A DNA stretch of 64,000 nt from Thermoanaerobacterium sp. RBIITD. Lineage in GTDB: Bacteria > Bacillota > Thermoanaerobacteria > Thermoanaerobacterales > Thermoanaerobacteraceae. Shown here in pieces: positions 5,520 through 44,488 of this stretch; position 1 is the first letter of the stretch; the number at the start of each line of letters is the position of its first letter. A program made the translations under genes and the position numbers. The stretch spans positions 2,183,411 to 2,247,410 of the forward strand of contig NZ_LT906662.1 of NCBI RefSeq assembly GCF_900205865.1, given 5' to 3'. Below the pieces are notes generated by a model. The model saw nothing but the letters and a program-made list of their open reading frames with translations. It had not been told where the DNA came from and ran no database searches.

Positions 5520-7395
5520 ATGATGATATGTCAGCATTTTCTCATAGAGCCAACAAAAGAACAAGAAGAAAAGCTGTTCTATACACTGTATCTTTGCCGT
5601 AAATTATATAACTATTCACTGGACCAAAGAATAAGACATTACAAAGAAAAGTGCGCTGCGTTTGCGCGATAATCCTGCCCTGATAAGGTAGGAAAAATGC
5701 CAGCATGTCAGAAATGGCATGACAACTAACTTACTGAATTCAGAGGTGAAACTCCTCTGTCACACGGAATTAACATCTATGAAGCATATCAAAGCTGAGA
5801 TGATGTGCGTGCTAATACTCCTATAGGTAGTAACGTATCGCTATACGTTACTAGTTCTAAAGCCAGGTGAAGAACGTAACATGATGTGTCTAAACCGAAA
5901 GGCATGGCGGAGTATATGTGCTGGCATCCTGACCCATGGAGATGTGAGAAAGGTATGTCTGAAGCTTCGTTAGTAATGGCCACAGAAATGTGGAAACAAT
6001 GGAAATCAAGCATGGTATTTTTCCTTTATCTTGTTTGTACAAGTCTGAAATGACTTGTGATAGCCAATGAACAATTGTAATTCAAATATTAAAGTTAATT
6101 CCTGGAGTATAGTACCCTCTTAAAGGTCGAATAAGGATAAGTGAGTCGGAACGCAGGAGAGCCTGTATGCGGAATGTAGCTACATAATGAAACATGCAGG
6201 AAGTCGGAGGCGTCATAGTAGTGATGATGTACTATAACAAAAATAGTACTGAACGAAGGACGCCAGAAAGTTAATAAATTTAGAGAATTATTACAGGCAG
6301 GTGATAGCGGTGAGGTTAAAGCTTGATGCCGTAATAACGACTAATTATTGGAAAGTCGTATGAAGCGAAAGTTTCATGTACGGTTTGGGATGGAGAAAAG
6401 GCAGAGATAACTTCAAAGCCTTACCTATCATCTACATGAAAAGGACTTACATATAGAAAGCAACAAAATATGTTACCACAGTATAAGAAAGAGCATCCTG
6501 AATACAAATTATTACAATCGCAGATATTGCAAGACGTATTGAGAAGATTAGATAGAGCATATAAAAACTTCTTTGAAAAAAGAGCAAAATATCGAAAGTT
6601 CAAAGATAAATATCACTATACATCAATAACACTTCCACAATGTGAAGCAAAAAGAAACTTCGGCGAAGAAGGATATGTGTATATAAAAAATATGGGTCAT
6701 ATAAAAATAAAAGCACATAAAGAATATGATCCATCAAAAGTAAAACCATAAACATAAAATATCATGCAGGTAAATGGTATATAAACTTATCGGTTGAAGT
6801 AGAAGAAGAAAAATCAACCATAGGAGAAAAAGCAGTAGGAATAAACAAAGGAATAAACTCAATAGCTGCAATATCAGATGGAGAATTATACAACAATCCT
6901 AGATGGCTACAAAAAGCAGAAAAGAAGCTAAAAAGACTGCAAAGAGAATTATCGAGAATGAAGAAAGGGAGTAAAAACAGGGAAAAACAAAAGAAAAAAT
7001 TAGCAAAACTTCACGAAAAGGTAGCAAATCAGAGAAGAGACTATCTGCACAAGATAAGCTATAACATAGTCAAAAACAATGACATCATTTGCGTTGAAGA
7101 CTTGCAAGTAAAAAATATGATGAAAAATCATAAACTTGCAAAATCAATAGCAAATGTATGATGTGGAATGTTAGATACATTTCTAAAATATAAAGCGGAG
7201 AGAGAGGGCAAAATATTCATAAAAGTAAATCCAACATACACAGCACAAAAATGTAGCAGATGCGGAAAAATTGTAGAAAAAGATTTATCAGTAAGAGTAC
7301 ACAAATGTGAATGTGGATTAGAAATAGATAGAGATATAAATGCAGCGATAAATATACTCCATGAAGGATTAAAGCAATTAGGAATAGCAGCATAA
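5520..7395 (+). pseudogene. TnpB RNA-guided nuclease family, broken and intron-interrupted
   Basis: The N-terminus (ATG 5520, MMICQHFLIEPTKEQEEKL) is cut at codon 44 by a group II intron and resumes after 6435 (KGLTYRKQQNMLPQYKKEHPEYK, then LQDVLRRLDRAYKNFF). Further lesions are a TGA at 6437 just after the intron, a frameshift near 6745 and a TGA at 7159 where homologues usually have Trp. The RuvC-I motif reads GINKGINSIA instead of GIDxG, so the first catalytic Asp is Asn. RuvC-II (CVEDL), the zinc ribbon (CSRCG...HKCEC) and RuvC-III (DRDINAAINI) are intact. The protein would be inactive even if assembled. Confidence 0.85.
5651..6435 (+). mobile_element. ORF-less group II intron inserted in tnpB
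   Basis: The 785-nt segment starts GTGCG (consensus GUGYG) exactly where the TnpB frame breaks and ends in CTAC. Domain V is recognisable at about 6353-6386: a GTCGTATGAA arm, a GCGAAAG turn and a TTTCATGTACGG arm. A domain VI hairpin (AAGGC/GCCTT) lies just before the 3' end, with an A about 8 nt upstream of the junction. GTAATG at 5973-5978 is the exact complement of the 5' exon CATTAC (5637-5642), a plausible EBS2-IBS2 pair; TTTTCC near 6018-6024 could be EBS1 for AGAAAA. No reverse transcriptase/maturase is encoded, so splicing or mobility would need one in trans. Confidence 0.85.
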
Positions 7396-27280: not shown

Positions 27281-27796
27281 TCATCTGTCAAAATATATAT
27301 TTTTACCTGTTGCGGATAAGGGAATGCCTACAACTATTTCACCATCGATAAGGTTTAATCTTTTTGCACAGATGCCAATCCTATACATTATTCTATTATC
27401 TACATTTAGCATACTTGCTGTTTTTACGGCTGAACCTATAGCTATTCCAAGGTCTATAAGTCTCCATGCACATATTGGACCGTCAAATTCGCTACCCTTT
27501 TTAAAGTCAGGTAATTCATCACATCTGTTGTATCCACATGCACCACAATTTAAACCTGCCTTCTTGGGCTTATTTAGTGAAATAAGCAAAACTGCTCCAG
27601 AGTTTTCGACATTTCTACCATCCCTATCGAAATTCTTTTTACCTGATTCATTGCCGTACTTTACCATATCTTCATTTAATCTTTTTAAATCTTCTCCAAC
27701 GATAACTTTTGTTTCTACAAAATCTTGACCAGATGCTTTTGGGGCGGTTCTCGCAGAAAGTGACATCAATTCACCAGCTAATTCAATAACATTCAT
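27281..27796 (-). CDS. DUF2148 ferredoxin-domain protein
   Basis: The 171-aa minus-strand gene has the DUF2148 signature: a cysteine cluster GLNCGACGYNRC (four-Cys motif-like) plus DGPICAWRLIDLGIAIGSAV and RIGICAKRL, consistent with an iron-sulfur cluster. The start has a perfect AGGAGGA ribosome-binding site. It is convergent with the YitT gene; the roughly 145 bp between their stops carry no clear terminator. Function unknown; members are common in strict anaerobes. Confidence 0.9.
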   Translation of the reverse strand: MNVIELAGELMSLSARTAPKASGQDFVETKVIVGEDLKRLNEDMVKYGNESGKKNFDRDGRNVENSGAVLLISLNKPKKAGLNCGACGYNRCDELPDFKKGSEFDGPICAWRLIDLGIAIGSAVKTASMLNVDNRIMYRIGICAKRLNLIDGEIVVGIPLSATGKNIYFDR

Positions 27797-28018: not shown

Positions 28019-28046
28019 TTGACATATTGCAAATCTATAGTATAAT
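28019..28046 (+). promoter_or_regulatory. Sigma-A promoter of the first ammonium transporter
   Basis: TTGACA (28019-28024), 16-bp spacer, TATAAT (28041-28046). The predicted start near 28053 leaves a leader of about 100 nt containing the hexaloop hairpin and terminator. Confidence 0.75.
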
Positions 28047-28075
28047 AATGAATAAATAATTAACTTTAAGGTAAC

Positions 28076-28130
28076 AGAGCAAAGGCGCTCTAATACATGG
28101 GATATATCTATGTATTAGAGCGCCTATTTT
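28076..28130 (+). promoter_or_regulatory. ANTAR-type antitermination leader (P2-like hairpin overlapping a terminator)
   Basis: A small hairpin AGAGC-[AAAGGC]-GCTCT (28076-28091) has a six-base loop with A at position 1 and G at position 4, the signature recognised by ANTAR-domain response regulators. Its 3' arm is also the start of the 5' arm of a 16-bp perfect terminator (28083-28098 with 28110-28125, then ATTTTT). The two structures are mutually exclusive. A clear upstream P1 partner hairpin was not found. Confidence 0.68.
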
Positions 28131-28156
28131 TGCAAATAATACAAGGAGGTATTATT

Positions 28157-29479
28157 TTGAAAAAAAGCATAATAATTTCAGCAACAACTCTATTATTAGT
28201 ATTAATACCGAACATAGCATTTGCCGCAGCAGGCAAAATTGACACAGGTGATACTGCATTTATCTTATTTTCATCAGCTTTAGTTATGATTATGACTCCT
28301 GGACTCGCATTTTTCTATGGTGGTATGGTTAGTGGAAAAAATGTTATAAGCATAATGATGCAGAGTTTTACAATAATCGCACTTATATCTGTTCAATGGG
28401 TATTATTTGGTTTTTCATTATCATTTAGTGGAGATATAGGTCATATTATAGGCAATCTACATTGGGCAGGATTAAGTAACATAGGCTATGGGCCTGATAA
28501 TACATATTCATCAACAATTCCACTTTTAGCATTTATGGTATATCAATTAATGTTTGCCATAATAACACCGGCTTTAATAACAGGTGCATTTGCAGAAAGA
28601 ATGAAATTTGCAGCATTCATAATATTTACATTACTCTGGACAACATTAGTATATGATCCACTTGCACATTGGGTATGGGGCGATGGAGGATGGCTTAAGA
28701 ACTTAGGCGCATTGGATTTTGCTGGTGGTACAGTTGTTCATATAAGTTCCGGTGTGTCAGGGCTTGTCGCAGCCTTAGTGCTTGGCAAAAGAAAAAATAT
28801 GAAGATGGTGCCACATCATATGCCAATGGTATTAATGGGAGCTGCGTTCTTGTGGTTTGGATGGTTTGGATTTAATGCAGGGAGTGCATTATCTGTAAGT
28901 GGAATCGCAGTTAATGCATTTGTTGTAACAAATACAGCGGCTGCAGCTGCTGCAATAGGATGGGTGTTAACTGAATGGAAGTTAAGTGGAAAGCCTACAC
29001 TTTTAGGAGCCGTAAGTGGTGCTGTTGCAGGGCTTGTCGCAATTACACCAGCATCAGGATATGTTACACCTGTTGCAGCAATTGTTATAGGTATTATATC
29101 AGGAATAATATGTTTCATATCCGTCAATTATATTAAGCATAAGTTTGGATATGATGACTCACTAGATGCATTTGGAATACATGGTGTTGGTGGTACATGG
29201 GGTGCATTAGCGACAGGATTATTTGCAACGAAAGCTATAAATCCTGCAGGTTCAAATGGATTATTTTATGGGAATCCAAATCAATTGTTAACTCAACTTA
29301 TAAGTGTTATCGTAACATATGTTTTCGCGGGATTGATGTCATTTATCATACTTAAATTTATAAGCTTATTTATGGATCTTAGAGTCACAAAAGAAGAAGA
29401 AGAAGCAGGGCTTGACATTGTTGAACATGGTGAAGAAGCATATAATCTCGGTTTTAAAGCAATTAACTTTAATCAATAA
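28157..29479 (+). CDS. amt: Ammonium transporter (Amt), first copy
   Basis: The 440-aa transporter has a cleavable signal peptide (MKKSIIISATTLLLVLIPNIAFAA) and the 11-helix Amt fold. The pore His pair is in LDFAGGTVVHISSG and in FGIHGVGGTWGALATG; the ammonium vestibule lies near AFFYGGMVSGKN. TTG 28157 is chosen because AAGGAGGT precedes it; the frame extends upstream into the terminator leader. It probably responds to nitrogen status through that leader. Confidence 0.95.
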   Translation: MKKSIIISATTLLLVLIPNIAFAAAGKIDTGDTAFILFSSALVMIMTPGLAFFYGGMVSGKNVISIMMQSFTIIALISVQWVLFGFSLSFSGDIGHIIGNLHWAGLSNIGYGPDNTYSSTIPLLAFMVYQLMFAIITPALITGAFAERMKFAAFIIFTLLWTTLVYDPLAHWVWGDGGWLKNLGALDFAGGTVVHISSGVSGLVAALVLGKRKNMKMVPHHMPMVLMGAAFLWFGWFGFNAGSALSVSGIAVNAFVVTNTAAAAAAIGWVLTEWKLSGKPTLLGAVSGAVAGLVAITPASGYVTPVAAIVIGIISGIICFISVNYIKHKFGYDDSLDAFGIHGVGGTWGALATGLFATKAINPAGSNGLFYGNPNQLLTQLISVIVTYVFAGLMSFIILKFISLFMDLRVTKEEEEAGLDIVEHGEEAYNLGFKAINFNQ

Positions 29480-29505: not shown

Positions 29506-29570
29506 ATTGCCAAATAAAAATAAGTGTAAATTAGTAAATATTATAAAAAGTTAATAACTTATTTGGCAAT
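29506..29570. repeat. Inverted repeat before the second amt leader hairpin
   Basis: ATTGCCAAATAA (29506-29517) and its exact complement TTATTTGGCAAT (29559-29570), 41 nt apart. It ends five bases before the P2-like hairpin. It may be the first amt gene's 3' structure or part of the second leader. Confidence 0.5.
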
Positions 29571-29574
29571 TGAA

Positions 29575-29620
29575 AAGCAAAGGTGCTTAATCTGAAACGA
29601 TATAAGCACCTTCATTTTTT
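29575..29620 (+). promoter_or_regulatory. Second ANTAR-type leader: P2-like hairpin overlapping a terminator
   Basis: AAGC-[AAAGGT]-GCTT (29575-29588), again a hexaloop with A1 and G4. Its 3' arm lies in the 10-bp terminator AAGGTGCTTA / TAAGCACCTT (29580-29589 and 29603-29612), followed by CATTTTTT. It shares AGCAAAGG and the same layout with the leader of the first amt gene. Confidence 0.65.
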
Positions 29621-29640
29621 AAAAGGGGGTGATGATAAAA

Positions 29641-29904
29641 GTGAAAAAAATGTCTATTATCACATTATACACAATAAATACAATAATTCTAACTTTAAGT
29701 TTTGCGTTTATATTATACAGCATTGCAACACATAATACAATAATAATTTTTTCAAGGCAAGTACCAGCATTTATAATGGGATTACCAATTGTTTACCTTG
29801 GTATCATTTCTTTCGTACGAGTGCATAGGCTTTCGAAAAGTATAAGGGATAAGGAATTTTCAATAAGTAATTTTAGGGCTAGAAAAATATTAAAAACAAA
29901 ATAA
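29641..29904 (+). CDS. Small two-helix membrane protein
   Basis: The 87-aa protein has two predicted membrane segments (about residues 5-27 and 39-58) and a basic C-terminus (VRVHRLSKSIRDKEFSISNFRARKILKTK). I do not recognise the family. GTG 29641 is chosen because the AAGGGGG site is too close to the in-frame ATG at 29629. It lies between the leader and the second ammonium transporter, 16 bp from the latter, so it is co-expressed with it and may be an accessory of ammonium uptake. Confidence 0.6.
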   Translation: MKKMSIITLYTINTIILTLSFAFILYSIATHNTIIIFSRQVPAFIMGLPIVYLGIISFVRVHRLSKSIRDKEFSISNFRARKILKTK

Positions 29905-29920
29905 TTTGGAGGTGTTTTTT

Positions 29921-31851
<1,931 letters not shown>

Positions 31852-38803: not shown

Positions 38804-40329
<1,526 letters not shown>

Positions 40330-40356
40330 AATCCTACAAAAAGTATTAAAAGGCGA

Positions 40357-40538
40357 ATTGTAATTATTAAGAGATGACGATTAATTGCGCTTTCGTAATA
40401 TACTAGGCGAGTGAAGCGCAGTGAGGCGTATGAGCGAAAGCGAAAGCCGTCACAACGCATAGACGGCGTTAGCCGAACAAGCGTAAGGAGCCTAAAGTAT
40501 ATAGAAAGCACAATTTGTCGATCGATAATAATTACAAT
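40357..40538 (+). repeat. rRNA spacer stem-loop repeat, copy A
   Basis: Outer arms ATTGTAATTATTA (40357-40369) and TAATAATTACAAT (40526-40538) are perfectly complementary. Inner arms (GCTTTCGTAATATACTAGGC against GCCTAAAGTATATAGAAAGC) continue the long stem. The apex carries GTCACAACGCATAGACGGC. Related copies lie at 40661-40847 and 44166-44334. Confidence 0.8.
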
Positions 40539-40545
40539 GAGCATA

Positions 40546-40569
40546 TCTCACTGTTCAGTTTTGAGGGTT
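40546..40569 (+). other. 16S processing stem, 3' strand
   Basis: TCTCACTGTTCAGTTTTGAG... is complementary to 38746-38769. Confidence 0.75.
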
Positions 40570-40581
40570 AAACCCTCAAAG

Positions 40582-40605
40582 TGAACCTTGAAAACTGCAC
40601 AATGC
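40582..40605 (+). other. 23S processing stem, 5' strand
   Basis: TGAACCTTGAAAACTGCACA... pairs with 44107-44130 after the 23S gene, with two mismatches. Confidence 0.8.
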
Positions 40606-40660
40606 AAAAAAAAGGGTAACGAGAAAAACGAGTTACAATGAGAACCGATATACATTGTCC

Positions 40661-40847
40661 GGAAAATATTATTAAAAGCGAACGATTAATGAAGCTTTCG
40701 TAATATATCACGATGAACGTAGCGCAGTTTGGCGTATGAGCGAAAGCGAAAGCCGTCACAACGCATAGACGGCGTTAGCCAAACAAGCGAAGAGAACCGA
40801 TGATATATTAGATAAGCGGAATTTGTGAGCGTTAATAATAATTTTCC
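40661..40847 (+). repeat. rRNA spacer stem-loop repeat, copy B
   Basis: Outer arms GGAAAATATTATTA and TAATAATAATTTTCC are near-complementary. The core GTATGAGCGAAAGCGAAAGC and GTCACAACGCATAGACGGC are identical to copy A, while the inner arms differ but keep pairing. It lies between the 23S 5' processing strand and the mature 23S. Confidence 0.8.
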
Positions 40848-41363
40848 AAAGAAAAGCGATGTATAAAAAAGAGAAGGTCAAGTTACAAAGGGCGTATGGT
40901 GGATGCCCAGGCACTTAGAGCCGAAGAAGGACGCAGCGAGCGGCGAAACGCTCCGGGGAGCTGCAAGCAGGCAGAGATCCGGAGATATCCGAATGGGGAA
41001 ACCCGCTTAAGGTAATACTTAAGCATCCCATGGTGAACACATAGCCATGAGGAAGGGAGACCGCGCGAACTGAAACATCTAAGTAGCGCGAGGAAAAGAA
41101 AGAAAAATCGATTTCCCAAGTAGCGGCGAGCGAACAGGAAAGAGCCCAAACCATCACCTATGGTGATGGGGTTTAGGACCACGCAAAATGAGTATCGGAC
41201 GAAGCCGAACGGACCTGGAAAGGCCGGCCAAAGACGGTGAAAGCCCAGTAGGCGAAAGAAAGATACAAAGGTGGGATCCAGAGTACCACAGGATAGGCAA
41301 CCCGGTGGGAAGACGGGAGGACCATCTCCCAAGGCTAAATACTCCTAAGTGACCGATAGCGCA

Positions 41364-41395
<32 letters not shown>

Positions 41396-41445
41396 GGGAG
41401 GGGAGTGAAAAAGAACCTGAAACCATATGTCCACAAGCAGTGGAA

Positions 41446-41513
41446 GTCTGGCACTCAACTGAACATGTTAGGGAGGAGAAAAAAGAACTAGCGTGTCCGG
41501 TTGAGTGCCAGAC
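41446..41513 (+). mobile_element. Short 23S intervening sequence (ORF-less)
   Basis: GTCTGGCACTCAACT (41446-41460) pairs over 15 bp, with one G-U, to GGTTGAGTGCCAGAC (41499-41513). The stem replaces the short hairpin that normally follows the CAAGCAGT segment. The loop contains TTAGGGAGGAGAAAAAAGA, which aligns with the ribosome-binding region of the GIY-YIG insert at 42768-43074 (TTAGGAGTGAAAAAGATG), and then ACTAG like the end of that insert. It looks like a deletion derivative of the same element. Confidence 0.7.
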
Positions 41514-42034
41514 GACCACGTACTTTTTGTAGAACGGACCGGCGAGTTATAGATATGCAGCAAGGTTAAGCGAAAGCGGAGCCGAAGCGAAAGCGAGTCT
41601 AAAGAGGGCGGAAGTTGCATATCATAGACCCGAAACCGTGCGACCTACCCATGATCAGGGTGAAGCCGGAGTAAGATCTGGTGGAGGCCCGAACCACGTT
41701 GACGTTGAAAAGTCATGGGATGAATTGTGGGTAGAGGAGAAATTCCAATCGAGCTCGGAGATAGCTGGTTCTCCCCGAAATAGCTTTAGGGCTAGCCTCA
41801 GGGAGTAAATATGGAGGTAGAGCACTGAATGGGCTAGGGGCCAAAAAGGCTACCGAACCCTATCAAACTCCGAATGCCATATTGATACCTGGGAGTCAGA
41901 CTACGAGTGATAAGATCCGTGGTCAAAAGGGAAAGAGCCCAGACCGACAGCTAAGGTCCCAAAGAGCATGTTAAGTGGGAAAGGAAGTAGGACTTCCAAG
42001 ACAACCAGGATGTTGGCTTAGAAGCAGCCATACA

Positions 42035-42066
<32 letters not shown>

Positions 42067-42767
42067 AAATCCTGCGCCGAAAATAAACGGGGCTAAAACA
42101 TGACACCGAAGCTTCGGATGAAAAATGGTAGGGGAGCGTACTGTATAGGGGGAAGGATAAGCGGAAGCGAATCTGGACAATACAGTAGAGAGAATGCCGG
42201 TATAAGTAACGAGAGTAAGGCGAGAAACCTTACCGTCGAAAGCCTAAGGATTCCTGGGGAAGGATAATCCGCCCAGGGTAAGTCGGGACCTAAGCCGAGG
42301 CGAAAGCGTAGGCGATGGACAACCGGTAATGAGTCCGGTACCACCAATATCCGATAAAAGAGAAGCAAGGACGCAGCGAGATAAGAAAAGCGTGCGGTTG
42401 GTAGAGCACGTCCAAGCAGCGACGAAAAGGGATGTGAGTGAAGTACCACATACCATAAGAGCTGTAACGGGGAGCCGAAAGGCGAAGTTTCAAAGGGGCT
42501 GCCGAGAAAAATTGCTATCGAGGATAAAGGTGCCCGTACCGCAAACCGACACAGGTAGGCGAGGAGAGAATCCAAAGACGAGCGGGAGAACCCTCATTAA
42601 GGAACTCGGCAAAAAGACTCCGTAACTTCGGGAGAAGGAGTGCCGAAAGGCCGCAGAGAAGAGGCCCAAGCGACTGTTTACCAAAAACACAGGTTTCTGC
42701 TAAGTCGAAAGACGAAGTATAGGAGCTGACGCCTGCCCGGTGCTGGAAGGTTAAGGGGAAATGTTAT

Positions 42768-43074
42768 CCGGCACTCAACTATACCTATTAGGAGTGAAAA
42801 AGATGTATTATGTCTATGTAATAAAGAATGAAAAAGGAGGCATATATACAGGCTATTCAGAGAATCTACGAAAAAGAGTAGAGGCACATAATAAAGGATT
42901 AAACAAGTACACAAAAGAGCATAAATGGGAAATAATTTATTATGAAGCATACAAAGCGAAAGAAGATGCAATAAAAAGAGAAAAACAATTAAAAGAATCT
43001 CATAACGCAAGAAGATGGTTAAAAGAAAGAATAGCCAAAAGTAAAAACTCTTAGTAGATAGAGTTGAGTGCCGG
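42768..43074 (+). mobile_element. GIY-YIG-encoding intervening sequence in 23S helix 68
   Basis: The 307-nt insert is bounded by CCGGCACTCAACT (42768-42780) and AGTTGAGTGCCGG (43062-43074), a 13-bp perfect stem. In other bacteria this point is the tetraloop of helix 68 in domain IV. Flanking rRNA resumes at GAGAAGCATAG...AAGCCCCAGTAAACGG. No group I or group II intron features are visible, so this is an RNase III-type intervening sequence rather than a self-splicing intron. Confidence 0.8.
42803..43054 (+). CDS. GIY-YIG endonuclease encoded inside the 23S rRNA gene
   Basis: The 83-aa single-domain nuclease is related to the UPF0213/YhbQ group. The YVY...YTG version of the GIY-YIG motif is in MYYVYVIKNEKGGIYTGYSENLRKRVEAHNKG, with the catalytic Arg in NLRKRV and the metal-binding Glu in EDAIKREKQLKES. 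The frame is open from 42761, but ATG 42803 has TAGGAG 8 nt upstream and lies wholly within the insert. It is probably the homing or maintenance factor of the intervening sequence; translation from rRNA transcripts would need processed or separate RNA. Confidence 0.85.
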   Translation: MYYVYVIKNEKGGIYTGYSENLRKRVEAHNKGLNKYTKEHKWEIIYYEAYKAKEDAIKREKQLKESHNARRWLKERIAKSKNS

Positions 43075-43087
43075 AGAAGCATAGAAC

Positions 43088-43182
<95 letters not shown>

Positions 43183-43433
43183 CTTGGGCGCTGTCTAGAT
43201 GGGGGACCCGGTGAAATTGTAGTACTCGTGAAGATGCGAGTTACCCGCGACAGGACAGAAAGACCCCATGGAGCTTTACTGCAGCTTGTCACTGGATTTT
43301 AGTAATCCCTGTACAGGATAGGTGGGAGGCAGAGAAAGATGGGCGCAAGCCTATCTGGAGCCGACGTTGGGATACCACCCTGAGATTACCGAAATTCTAA
43401 CATAGGAGCCGTAAGCCGGCATATGGACACTGA

Positions 43434-43466
<33 letters not shown>

Positions 43467-43677
43467 AAAAAAGTAACGGAGGCGTCCAAAGGTTACCTCA
43501 GCGCGGAAGGAAATCGCGCGTAAGAGTGCAAAGGCAGAAGGTAGCCTAACTGTGAGAAAAACAATTCGAGCAGGGACGAAAGTCGGGCTTAGTGATCCGG
43601 CGGTAGAGAATGGGATTGCCGTCGCTCAACGGATAAAAGCTACCCTGGGGATAACAGGCTGATCTCCCCCAAGAGTC

Positions 43678-43821
<144 letters not shown>

Positions 43822-44106
43822 TCGCGGGCGTAGGAAATTTGAGAGGGGCTGCCCTTAGTACGAGAGGACCGGGGTGGACGAACCGATGGTGTACCAGTTG
43901 CGTAGCCGTACGCACAGCTGGGTAGCCAAGTTCGGAAGGGATAAACGCTGAAAGCATCTAAGCGTGAAACCCACCTCAAGATAAGATTTCCCAAACCGAA
44001 AGGGAGTAAGACACCTTGAAGAAGACGAGGTAGATAGGCCGGAGGTGTAAGAGTAGAAATACTTTGAGCTGACCGGTACTAATAAGTCGAGGACTTGACC
44101 AAAGAA

Positions 44107-44130
44107 GCATTGTGCAGTATTCAAAGTTCA
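44107..44130 (+). other. 23S processing stem, 3' strand
   Basis: GCATTGTGCAGTATTCAAAG... is complementary to 40582-40605. Confidence 0.8.
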
Positions 44131-44165
44131 TTTAGAAAAAGCATATATGTGAAGAATCAAAAGAA

Positions 44166-44334
44166 GAAAATATTATTGGAGAGAGCGATTAATTGCGTTT
44201 TCGTAATATACTCGGCGAACGAAGTGCAGTGAGGCGTCAAAAGACGTCACAACGCATAGACGGCTTTAGCCGAACAAACGAAGTGAGCCGAAAGTATATA
44301 GAAAACACAATTTGCGAACGGAAATAATATATTC
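44166..44334 (+). repeat. rRNA spacer stem-loop repeat, copy C
   Basis: It lies between 23S and 5S. Outer arms GAAAATATTATT and AATAATATATTC pair with one mismatch. Inner arms TTTTCGTAATATACTCGGC / GCCGAAAGTATATAGAAAA and the apex GTCACAACGCATAGACGGC match copies A and B, though the GCGAAAGCGAAAGC segment is missing. Confidence 0.8.
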
Positions 44335-44378
44335 TAAGAGAAGAATCAACATATATGCAAAGAAATGAACAAAAGATA

Positions 44379-44488
44379 TCCGGTGGCAATAGCGGAGGTT
44401 AAAAACCCGTTCCCATACCGAACACGGAAGTGAAGCCCTCCAGCGCCGATGGTACTGCTATTGCGGGAGAGTAGGTCGCTGCCGGTGA
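44379..44488 (+). rRNA. rrf: 5S ribosomal RNA
   Basis: Complete 5S gene of about 110 nt. It starts TCCGGTGGCAATAGCGG, contains CCGTTCCCATACCGAACACGG and GCGGGAGAGTAGG, and ends in GCTGCCGGTGA, which pairs with the 5' end. Ends are estimated by the terminal helix. Confidence 0.95.

Follow-up and report, generated by a model that had tools for sequence, protein, structure and literature searches.

Leader of an ammonium transporter gene of Thermoanaerobacterium sp. RBIITD as a putative single-hexaloop ANTAR attenuator

Known ANTAR targets

The closest described counterparts of the element considered here are the eut leaders of Enterococcus faecalis with their regulators EutV/EutW. As published, the target of an ANTAR-domain regulator is a pair of hairpins, P1 and P2, each with a hexaloop carrying A at position 1 and G at position 4 (A1/G4), the stem of P2 having at least 3 bp and both hairpins being required; in the eut leaders the P1-P2 linkers measure 5-12 nt, and EutV needs both hairpins in vivo (PMC3369931). 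The overlap of P2 with a terminator was used in Ramesh 2012 as a screening criterion, not demanded of every target, and the same work places ANTAR targets before ammonium transporter, P-II, nitrogenase, glutamine and glutamate synthesis genes (PMC3369931); an actinobacterial ANTAR survey likewise required two stem-loops (PMC8164766). For EutV, a longer linker is reported to abolish antitermination in vitro, and the structural paper raises the question of why two hairpins should be required, given that the dimer cannot plausibly touch both at once (PMC8934654). Here, a 64,000-nt stretch of the genome of Thermoanaerobacterium sp. RBIITD (NZ_LT906662.1, positions 2,183,411 to 2,247,410, forward strand), called the window, was analysed for the leader of its first ammonium transporter gene, amt1. 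From its sequence, we read this leader, together with its counterparts in the family, as a single-hexaloop variant of the ANTAR target, without canonical P1.

The locus shares with the eut leaders a receiver-ANTAR regulator, the A1/G4 hexaloop and the overlap of hairpin and terminator (PMC3369931, PMC8934654), and with EutV main loop-contacting residues, although not all those needed for binding (PMC8934654). Unlike those leaders, where two hexaloop hairpins are present and both are needed, only the terminator-overlapping one was found here, and the genes serve ammonium assimilation instead of ethanolamine use. The nitrogen-gene targets of Ramesh 2012 are of the same gene kinds and show the same terminator overlap, but were found with a dual-hairpin model (PMC3369931), by which sites lacking P1 would probably score poorly or be missed. 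ANTAR targets before ammonium transporters are in general already known, and what differs is the single hexaloop instead of the pair; no description of single-hexaloop ANTAR targets was found in the available text of the open-licence literature. An antiterminator tied to ammonia assimilation, NitR, is named for Clostridium acetobutylicum in PMC4676874, where a C. thermocellum receiver-ANTAR protein, which fell in expression along with its gene cluster, is suggested to have the same role; no description of the RNA target of C. acetobutylicum NitR was found in the available literature.

The amt1 leader

The following features, all on the + strand of the window, make up the locus.

28019..28046, +: predicted sigma-70 promoter of amt1 (TTGACA 28019-28024, 16-nt spacer, TATAAT 28041-28046; consensus match only)
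28076..28091, +: putative antiterminator hairpin P2 of amt1, AGAGC[AAAGGC]GCTCT, 5 bp, hexaloop with A1 (A81) and G4 (G84)
28083..28131, +: intrinsic terminator of amt1, a 16-bp stem (28083-28125) and a T-run (28127-28131)
28157..29479, +: amt1, ammonium transporter (PF00909), TTG start at 28157 with GGAGG ahead

The promoter places the expected transcription start near 28053. The terminator arms, AGGCGCTCTAATACAT (28083-28098) and ATGTATTAGAGCGCCT (28110-28125), form 16 perfect base pairs, to which RNAfold adds three. The preliminary description of this DNA had reported a hairpin with loop AAAGGC that shares its 3′ arm with a 16-bp terminator before amt, and both can be read directly in the sequence; the mutually exclusive layout that it proposed holds as well, because P2 and the terminator use the same nucleotides, 28083-28091, which are the last four loop bases and the 3′ arm of P2. 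The folds agree: the full leader (28053-28132; −31 kcal/mol, z −7.9, 0/200 shuffles as good) folds into the terminator, and the leader truncated at 28098 (28053-28098) forms the hexaloop hairpin of 5 bp, extended outwards by 3 bp, at −8.2 kcal/mol (z −3.0, 1/200 shuffles as good). The ribosome site of amt1 lies outside P2. The gene upstream (27281-27796) is on the opposite strand, its start towards the leader, so that the terminator is not the 3′ end of its transcript. Rfam gave no family at gathering score on this leader; weak matches to models of sRNAs and microRNAs fell short of the gathering score and were rejected.

Both helices covary in an alignment of 21 related elements, and neither is a product of chance. 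P2 is paired in 95.2% of the cells, with two-sided changes in 20 cells against 7.2 in shuffles, and the terminator in 88.3%, with 39 against 14.8 (0/500 shuffles reach either value); slid registers of each score far lower. Such changes fall on four of the five pair positions of P2 and on eight of the 11 of the terminator. The 21 elements show no variation at the closing C-G pair, A1, A2 and G4, to which the use of the motif in choosing rows contributes; since the rows are related and motif and pairing played a part in their selection, the paired share is inflated and the covariation somewhat overstated.

The ANTAR protein and its regulon

The regulator that an ANTAR mechanism calls for is present: the 3.40-Mb genome has exactly one ANTAR match, in a gene directly behind glnA, whose longest reading (195 aa) overlaps the glnA stop codon by one base. 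A receiver domain (PF00072, residues 6-114) is followed by the ANTAR domain (PF03861, 132-185), both over cut-off, and the best PDB matches are the putative antiterminator 1s8n and EutV (6wsh). The EutV residues described as holding G4 or as vital for binding, R142, K149, E160, Y164 and M172 (PMC8934654), are all kept; K143 is kept too, and K147 is replaced by R. The protein is a likely, putative ortholog of C. acetobutylicum NitR.

The sites were searched with a covariance model (R1) of P2 and terminator, without P1, built from the 21 aligned rows; in this genome 150 of 3563 first-look candidates were scored. Six sites reached E ≤ 5.1e-5, namely those before amt1, glnA, amt2, a branched-chain amino-acid-type binding protein, alanine dehydrogenase (ald) and an aconitase-X-like gene, and a further unit precedes a polar amino-acid binding protein (E = 0.0035); all seven except the aconitase-X-like and polar amino-acid sites were training rows. 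Alanine dehydrogenase is above the NCBIfam cut-off, while the names of the aconitase-X-like gene and of both binding proteins come from matches that stay below it. The glnA unit, AGGAC[AAGGGT]GTCCT with an overlapping long terminator, recurs in relatives (genomes carry G numbers, loci L numbers): of 18 glnA leaders fetched, 17 were intact, that of G016 being interrupted by a contig end, and the hairpin is present in every one of the 17 (16 by a 4-bp scan, G001 with 3 bp). Model R1 also found units before nifH of G017 and G001 (NCBIfam over cut-off) and of G034 (named by eye), tandem units before the third amt of G017, and one before an aminotransferase (by eye) that is followed by an NCS1 nucleobase-type permease. 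The motif thus occurs before glnA in this genome and before nif genes in relatives, two kinds of gene at which the preliminary description proposed to look for it, and with the sole ANTAR gene behind glnA this supports the earlier proposal of ANTAR-type antitermination of amt1. Judged from sequence, ANTAR antitermination is well supported at these sites.

Tandem hexaloop-terminator units were observed before alanine dehydrogenase (L039:3918-4006) and before nifH of G001 (L135:203-297), and would form a two-step gate. Model R1 gave 15 matches in all at E ≤ 10 in this genome. Those not kept are the reverse strand of the amt1 terminator (6.1e-4), 877658 on both strands (~0.05), 849644 (0.065, loop starting with G) and four above 2. 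A DNA pattern of loop plus terminator matched seven times forward and seven times in reverse, the backward control giving 0 and 2; these are mostly the two strands of the same palindromes, and 2211491 (amt1) and 1284422 (ald) were kept. The match at 877665, a palindrome with a 3-bp P2 and no T-run before a molybdate-binding-like gene, was looked at and not kept, as were those at 126945, 1072787, 1265907, 1848310 and 2906408. A palindrome at L040:2162-2205, GCAAAGGTGC...GCACCTTTGC, lies upstream of a molybdate-binding-like gene and is unit-like but without T-run. In family f4, of the same class, near-identical hexaloop-terminator units (L146:308-359 and L146:3100-3150) precede a methyl-accepting-type protein and a carboxylase-type gene, both named by eye; the ANTAR protein of f4 differs, its receiver having Glu at the Asp position (by eye), and these units, which possibly belong to a non-nitrogen regulon, were excluded from the nitrogen regulon.

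Sites follow the ANTAR protein

In a family sample of 20 genomes (147 of thousands of first-look candidates scored per genome), 18 have an ANTAR match, and 17 of these have sites at E ≤ 1.2e-7; the exception, G016, is 89% complete, and it is here that the contig end cuts the glnA leader. The two genomes without ANTAR, G007 and G009, have best sites of only E = 0.006 and 0.010. No amt1 match was found in G007 and G009, nor in the ANTAR-bearing, incomplete G016. G007 and G009 retain glnA, and its leader keeps the −10 box and pieces of the terminator; P2 is broken, with closing pair and loop altered. The P2 of glnA is identical in the eight ANTAR-bearing genomes of their genus.

The phylum sample comprised 149 genomes, 77 with ANTAR (in one the match is below the family cut-off) and 72 without, and was searched with stricter filters, 36 candidates being scored in each genome. 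Of the genomes with ANTAR, 17/77 have sites at E ≤ 1e-4, vs 0/72 of those without (Fisher 5e-6), or 14/74 vs 0/72 when the own genus is left out (Fisher 4e-5); at E ≤ 0.003 the counts are 29/77 and 3/72, and of the three ANTAR-less sites two were examined, one having no P2 and the other a 3-bp P2. At the glnA loci of named genomes, P2 and terminator are present in 10 of 18, including two Thermoanaerobacterium, Pelotomaculum, Desulfofundulus and other clostridia.

Lack of the upstream hairpin

The absence of a second hairpin upstream goes beyond the preliminary description. An A1/G4 hexaloop hairpin was sought in the 45 nt upstream of P2, and at amt1 none with at least 3 bp was found. Among 47 sites of family f1, which are related rather than independent and include two uncertain own units, no P1 with at least 4 bp was found (1.25 expected from shuffles) and none by a bulge-tolerant 5-bp rule (2.46 expected), and four sites have one with 3 bp (2.89 expected). 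At sites of distant clostridia found with the same model R1, P1 with at least 4 bp occurs in 6/22 (0.32 expected) and by the bulge-tolerant rule in 9/22 (0.62 expected), among which L164, with a long linker, is doubtful; these 22 remain of 27 loci returned, L167, L172, L182 and L183 having been dropped for want of P2 at the expected place and L178 for a 3-bp P2 in an ANTAR-less genome. P1 was found elsewhere in 2/6 sites of f2 (one all A-T), 0/2 of f3 and 0/2 of f4, is absent at G008 amt1 and G036 glnA, and has at least 4 bp in one (L258) of the 10 named-genome glnA loci with P2 and terminator.

The space left for P1 was measured at near-perfect promoters, from the −10 box to P2. It is 23 nt at the own ald and at G004 liv, 26 at G001 amt1, 29 at the own amt1, 30 at the third amt of G017, 34-36 at the amt1 of relatives and 38 at the own liv; at the dual sites L177 and L176 it is 37 and 38 nt. 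The approximately 16 nt left at ald and G004 liv thus give no room for a 4-bp P1 and a 5-nt linker; the other leaders have room, yet no P1. At G001 glnA a TATAAT lies 7 nt before P2, and the automatic scan gave another box 67 nt away. As a decisive argument against P1 the distance was rejected, with 23-38 nt in the family vs 37 and 38 at the dual sites.

Alternative explanations

The sites might be normal dual-hairpin targets whose P1 is disguised, its part being taken by a weak or non-canonical hairpin at about 28060-28075 that includes an ACTTTAA block. This block does stand between start site and P2 in most of the Thermoanaerobacterium amt1 leaders seen (G017 and G013 having GCTTTAA), and it precedes the third amt of G017 as well; GTTG/CGAC in G017 vs GTTA/TGAC in G012 is a possible compensated pair, and several leaders, with 34-38 nt from −10 box to P2, offer the room. 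However, inspection by eye shows one or more of the four pairs disrupted in the own genome, in G015, G018 and G019 and at the third amt of G017, and the loop does not have the A1/G4 hexaloop form. Neither the glnA, ald, liv and nifH leaders inspected nor the amt1 leader of G001 showed the block, and at G001 glnA only 7 nt separate the end of the TATAAT from P2. That a conserved hairpin around the block replaces P1 was rejected by eye, and we consider a disguised P1 unlikely.

That the leader is a plain attenuator with a fortuitous hexaloop, regulated, if at all, by another factor, accords with the commonness of leader terminators and with an ANTAR link that is drawn from sequence; nevertheless, this is very improbable, given the invariant closing pair and loop bases (helped by the choice of rows), the covariation of a P2 for which a mere terminator has no need, and sites that track the presence of ANTAR, P2 decaying where it is lost. 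Hardly any weight is given either to an ANTAR protein that binds the hairpins as a repressor, or acts on translation or RNA stability, without antitermination: the 21 aligned sites overlap a terminator, whose cells are paired in the 88.3% given above, and the ribosome site of amt1 is free of P2.

Some observations weigh against the ANTAR attenuator itself. The joint mutation of N173, R175 and R177 of EutV abolishes binding (PMC8934654), and these residues are D, T and P in the own protein; its receiver retains the Asp for phosphate acceptance but has lost one residue of the neighbouring acidic pair. The number of positions with double changes is not clearly above that of shuffles, both for P2 (4 vs 3.0; 106/500 shuffles reach it) and for the terminator (8 vs 5.8; 30/500). 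Model R1 did not report two of its training rows, both in L039, namely the second unit at ald and the one that precedes a 173-aa ORF, and they are possible regulon sites only. Finally, given that EutV depends on both hairpins in vivo and that lengthening the linker abolishes its antitermination in vitro, a one-hairpin site must somehow work differently. With these points taken into account, the amt1 leader is probably an attenuator under the sole NitR-like ANTAR protein, for which a single hexaloop appears to suffice.

The second unit and other features of the window

Besides the amt1 site described earlier, the window holds an additional hexaloop-terminator unit, which precedes the amt2-glnK operon.

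29575..29588, +: second P2 hairpin, in the amt1-amt2 gap, AAGC[AAAGGT]GCTT
29580..29620, +: terminator overlapping the second P2, with T-run
29629..29904, +: small ORF, 91 aa, first in the amt2 operon, no Pfam match
29906..31513, +: amt2, second ammonium transporter (PF00909)
31513..31851, +: glnK-type P-II protein (PF00543)

The terminator of this unit stands out from shuffles (z −3.6, 0/200 as good), and the truncated leader does not (z −0.4, 61/200 as good); the slightly favoured lowest-energy fold of the latter is a 5-bp tetraloop hairpin, the centroid being the hexaloop hairpin. The 91-aa ORF between terminator and amt2 is apparently present in relatives. An 11-bp inverted repeat, TTGCCAAATAA (29507-29517) and TTATTTGGCAA (29559-29569), lies just 5′ of the unit, is recognisable in several relatives and perhaps marks the end of the amt1 transcript. 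Elsewhere in the window, a group II intron match over the Rfam gathering score (6351-6433) and an rRNA operon with 16S, 23S and 5S genes (38804-44487) were observed.

Proposed mechanism and significance

By default, polymerase would leave the promoter, the 16-bp hairpin would form and transcription would end before amt1. When nitrogen is short, an active NitR dimer would bind the A1/G4 hexaloop of P2 as it emerges from the polymerase, and P2, so held, would keep 28083-28091 out of the terminator, allowing amt1 to be made; one hexaloop shortly after the start site, without canonical P1, appears to be enough. Binding by NitR, the direction of the response and its signal are what we infer here. 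As amt2-glnK, glnA-nitR, ald and the amino-acid uptake genes share the unit, a common response is expected of them, in which NitR would feed back on its own production.

More generally, a natural class of single-hexaloop ANTAR antiterminators seems somewhat favoured, in which one dimer on one hexaloop suffices, P1 is a lineage-specific addition, and the NitR of this family runs a nitrogen regulon (amt, glnK, glnA, ald, amino-acid uptake and, in some species, nifH) from leaders with P2 only. With such leaders, in a genome with a single ANTAR protein and where no site with P1 was found, the question of why two hairpins are needed becomes directly testable. Search models built on dual hairpins would probably miss targets of this kind, so that the nitrogen regulons of thermophilic clostridia may exceed those known.
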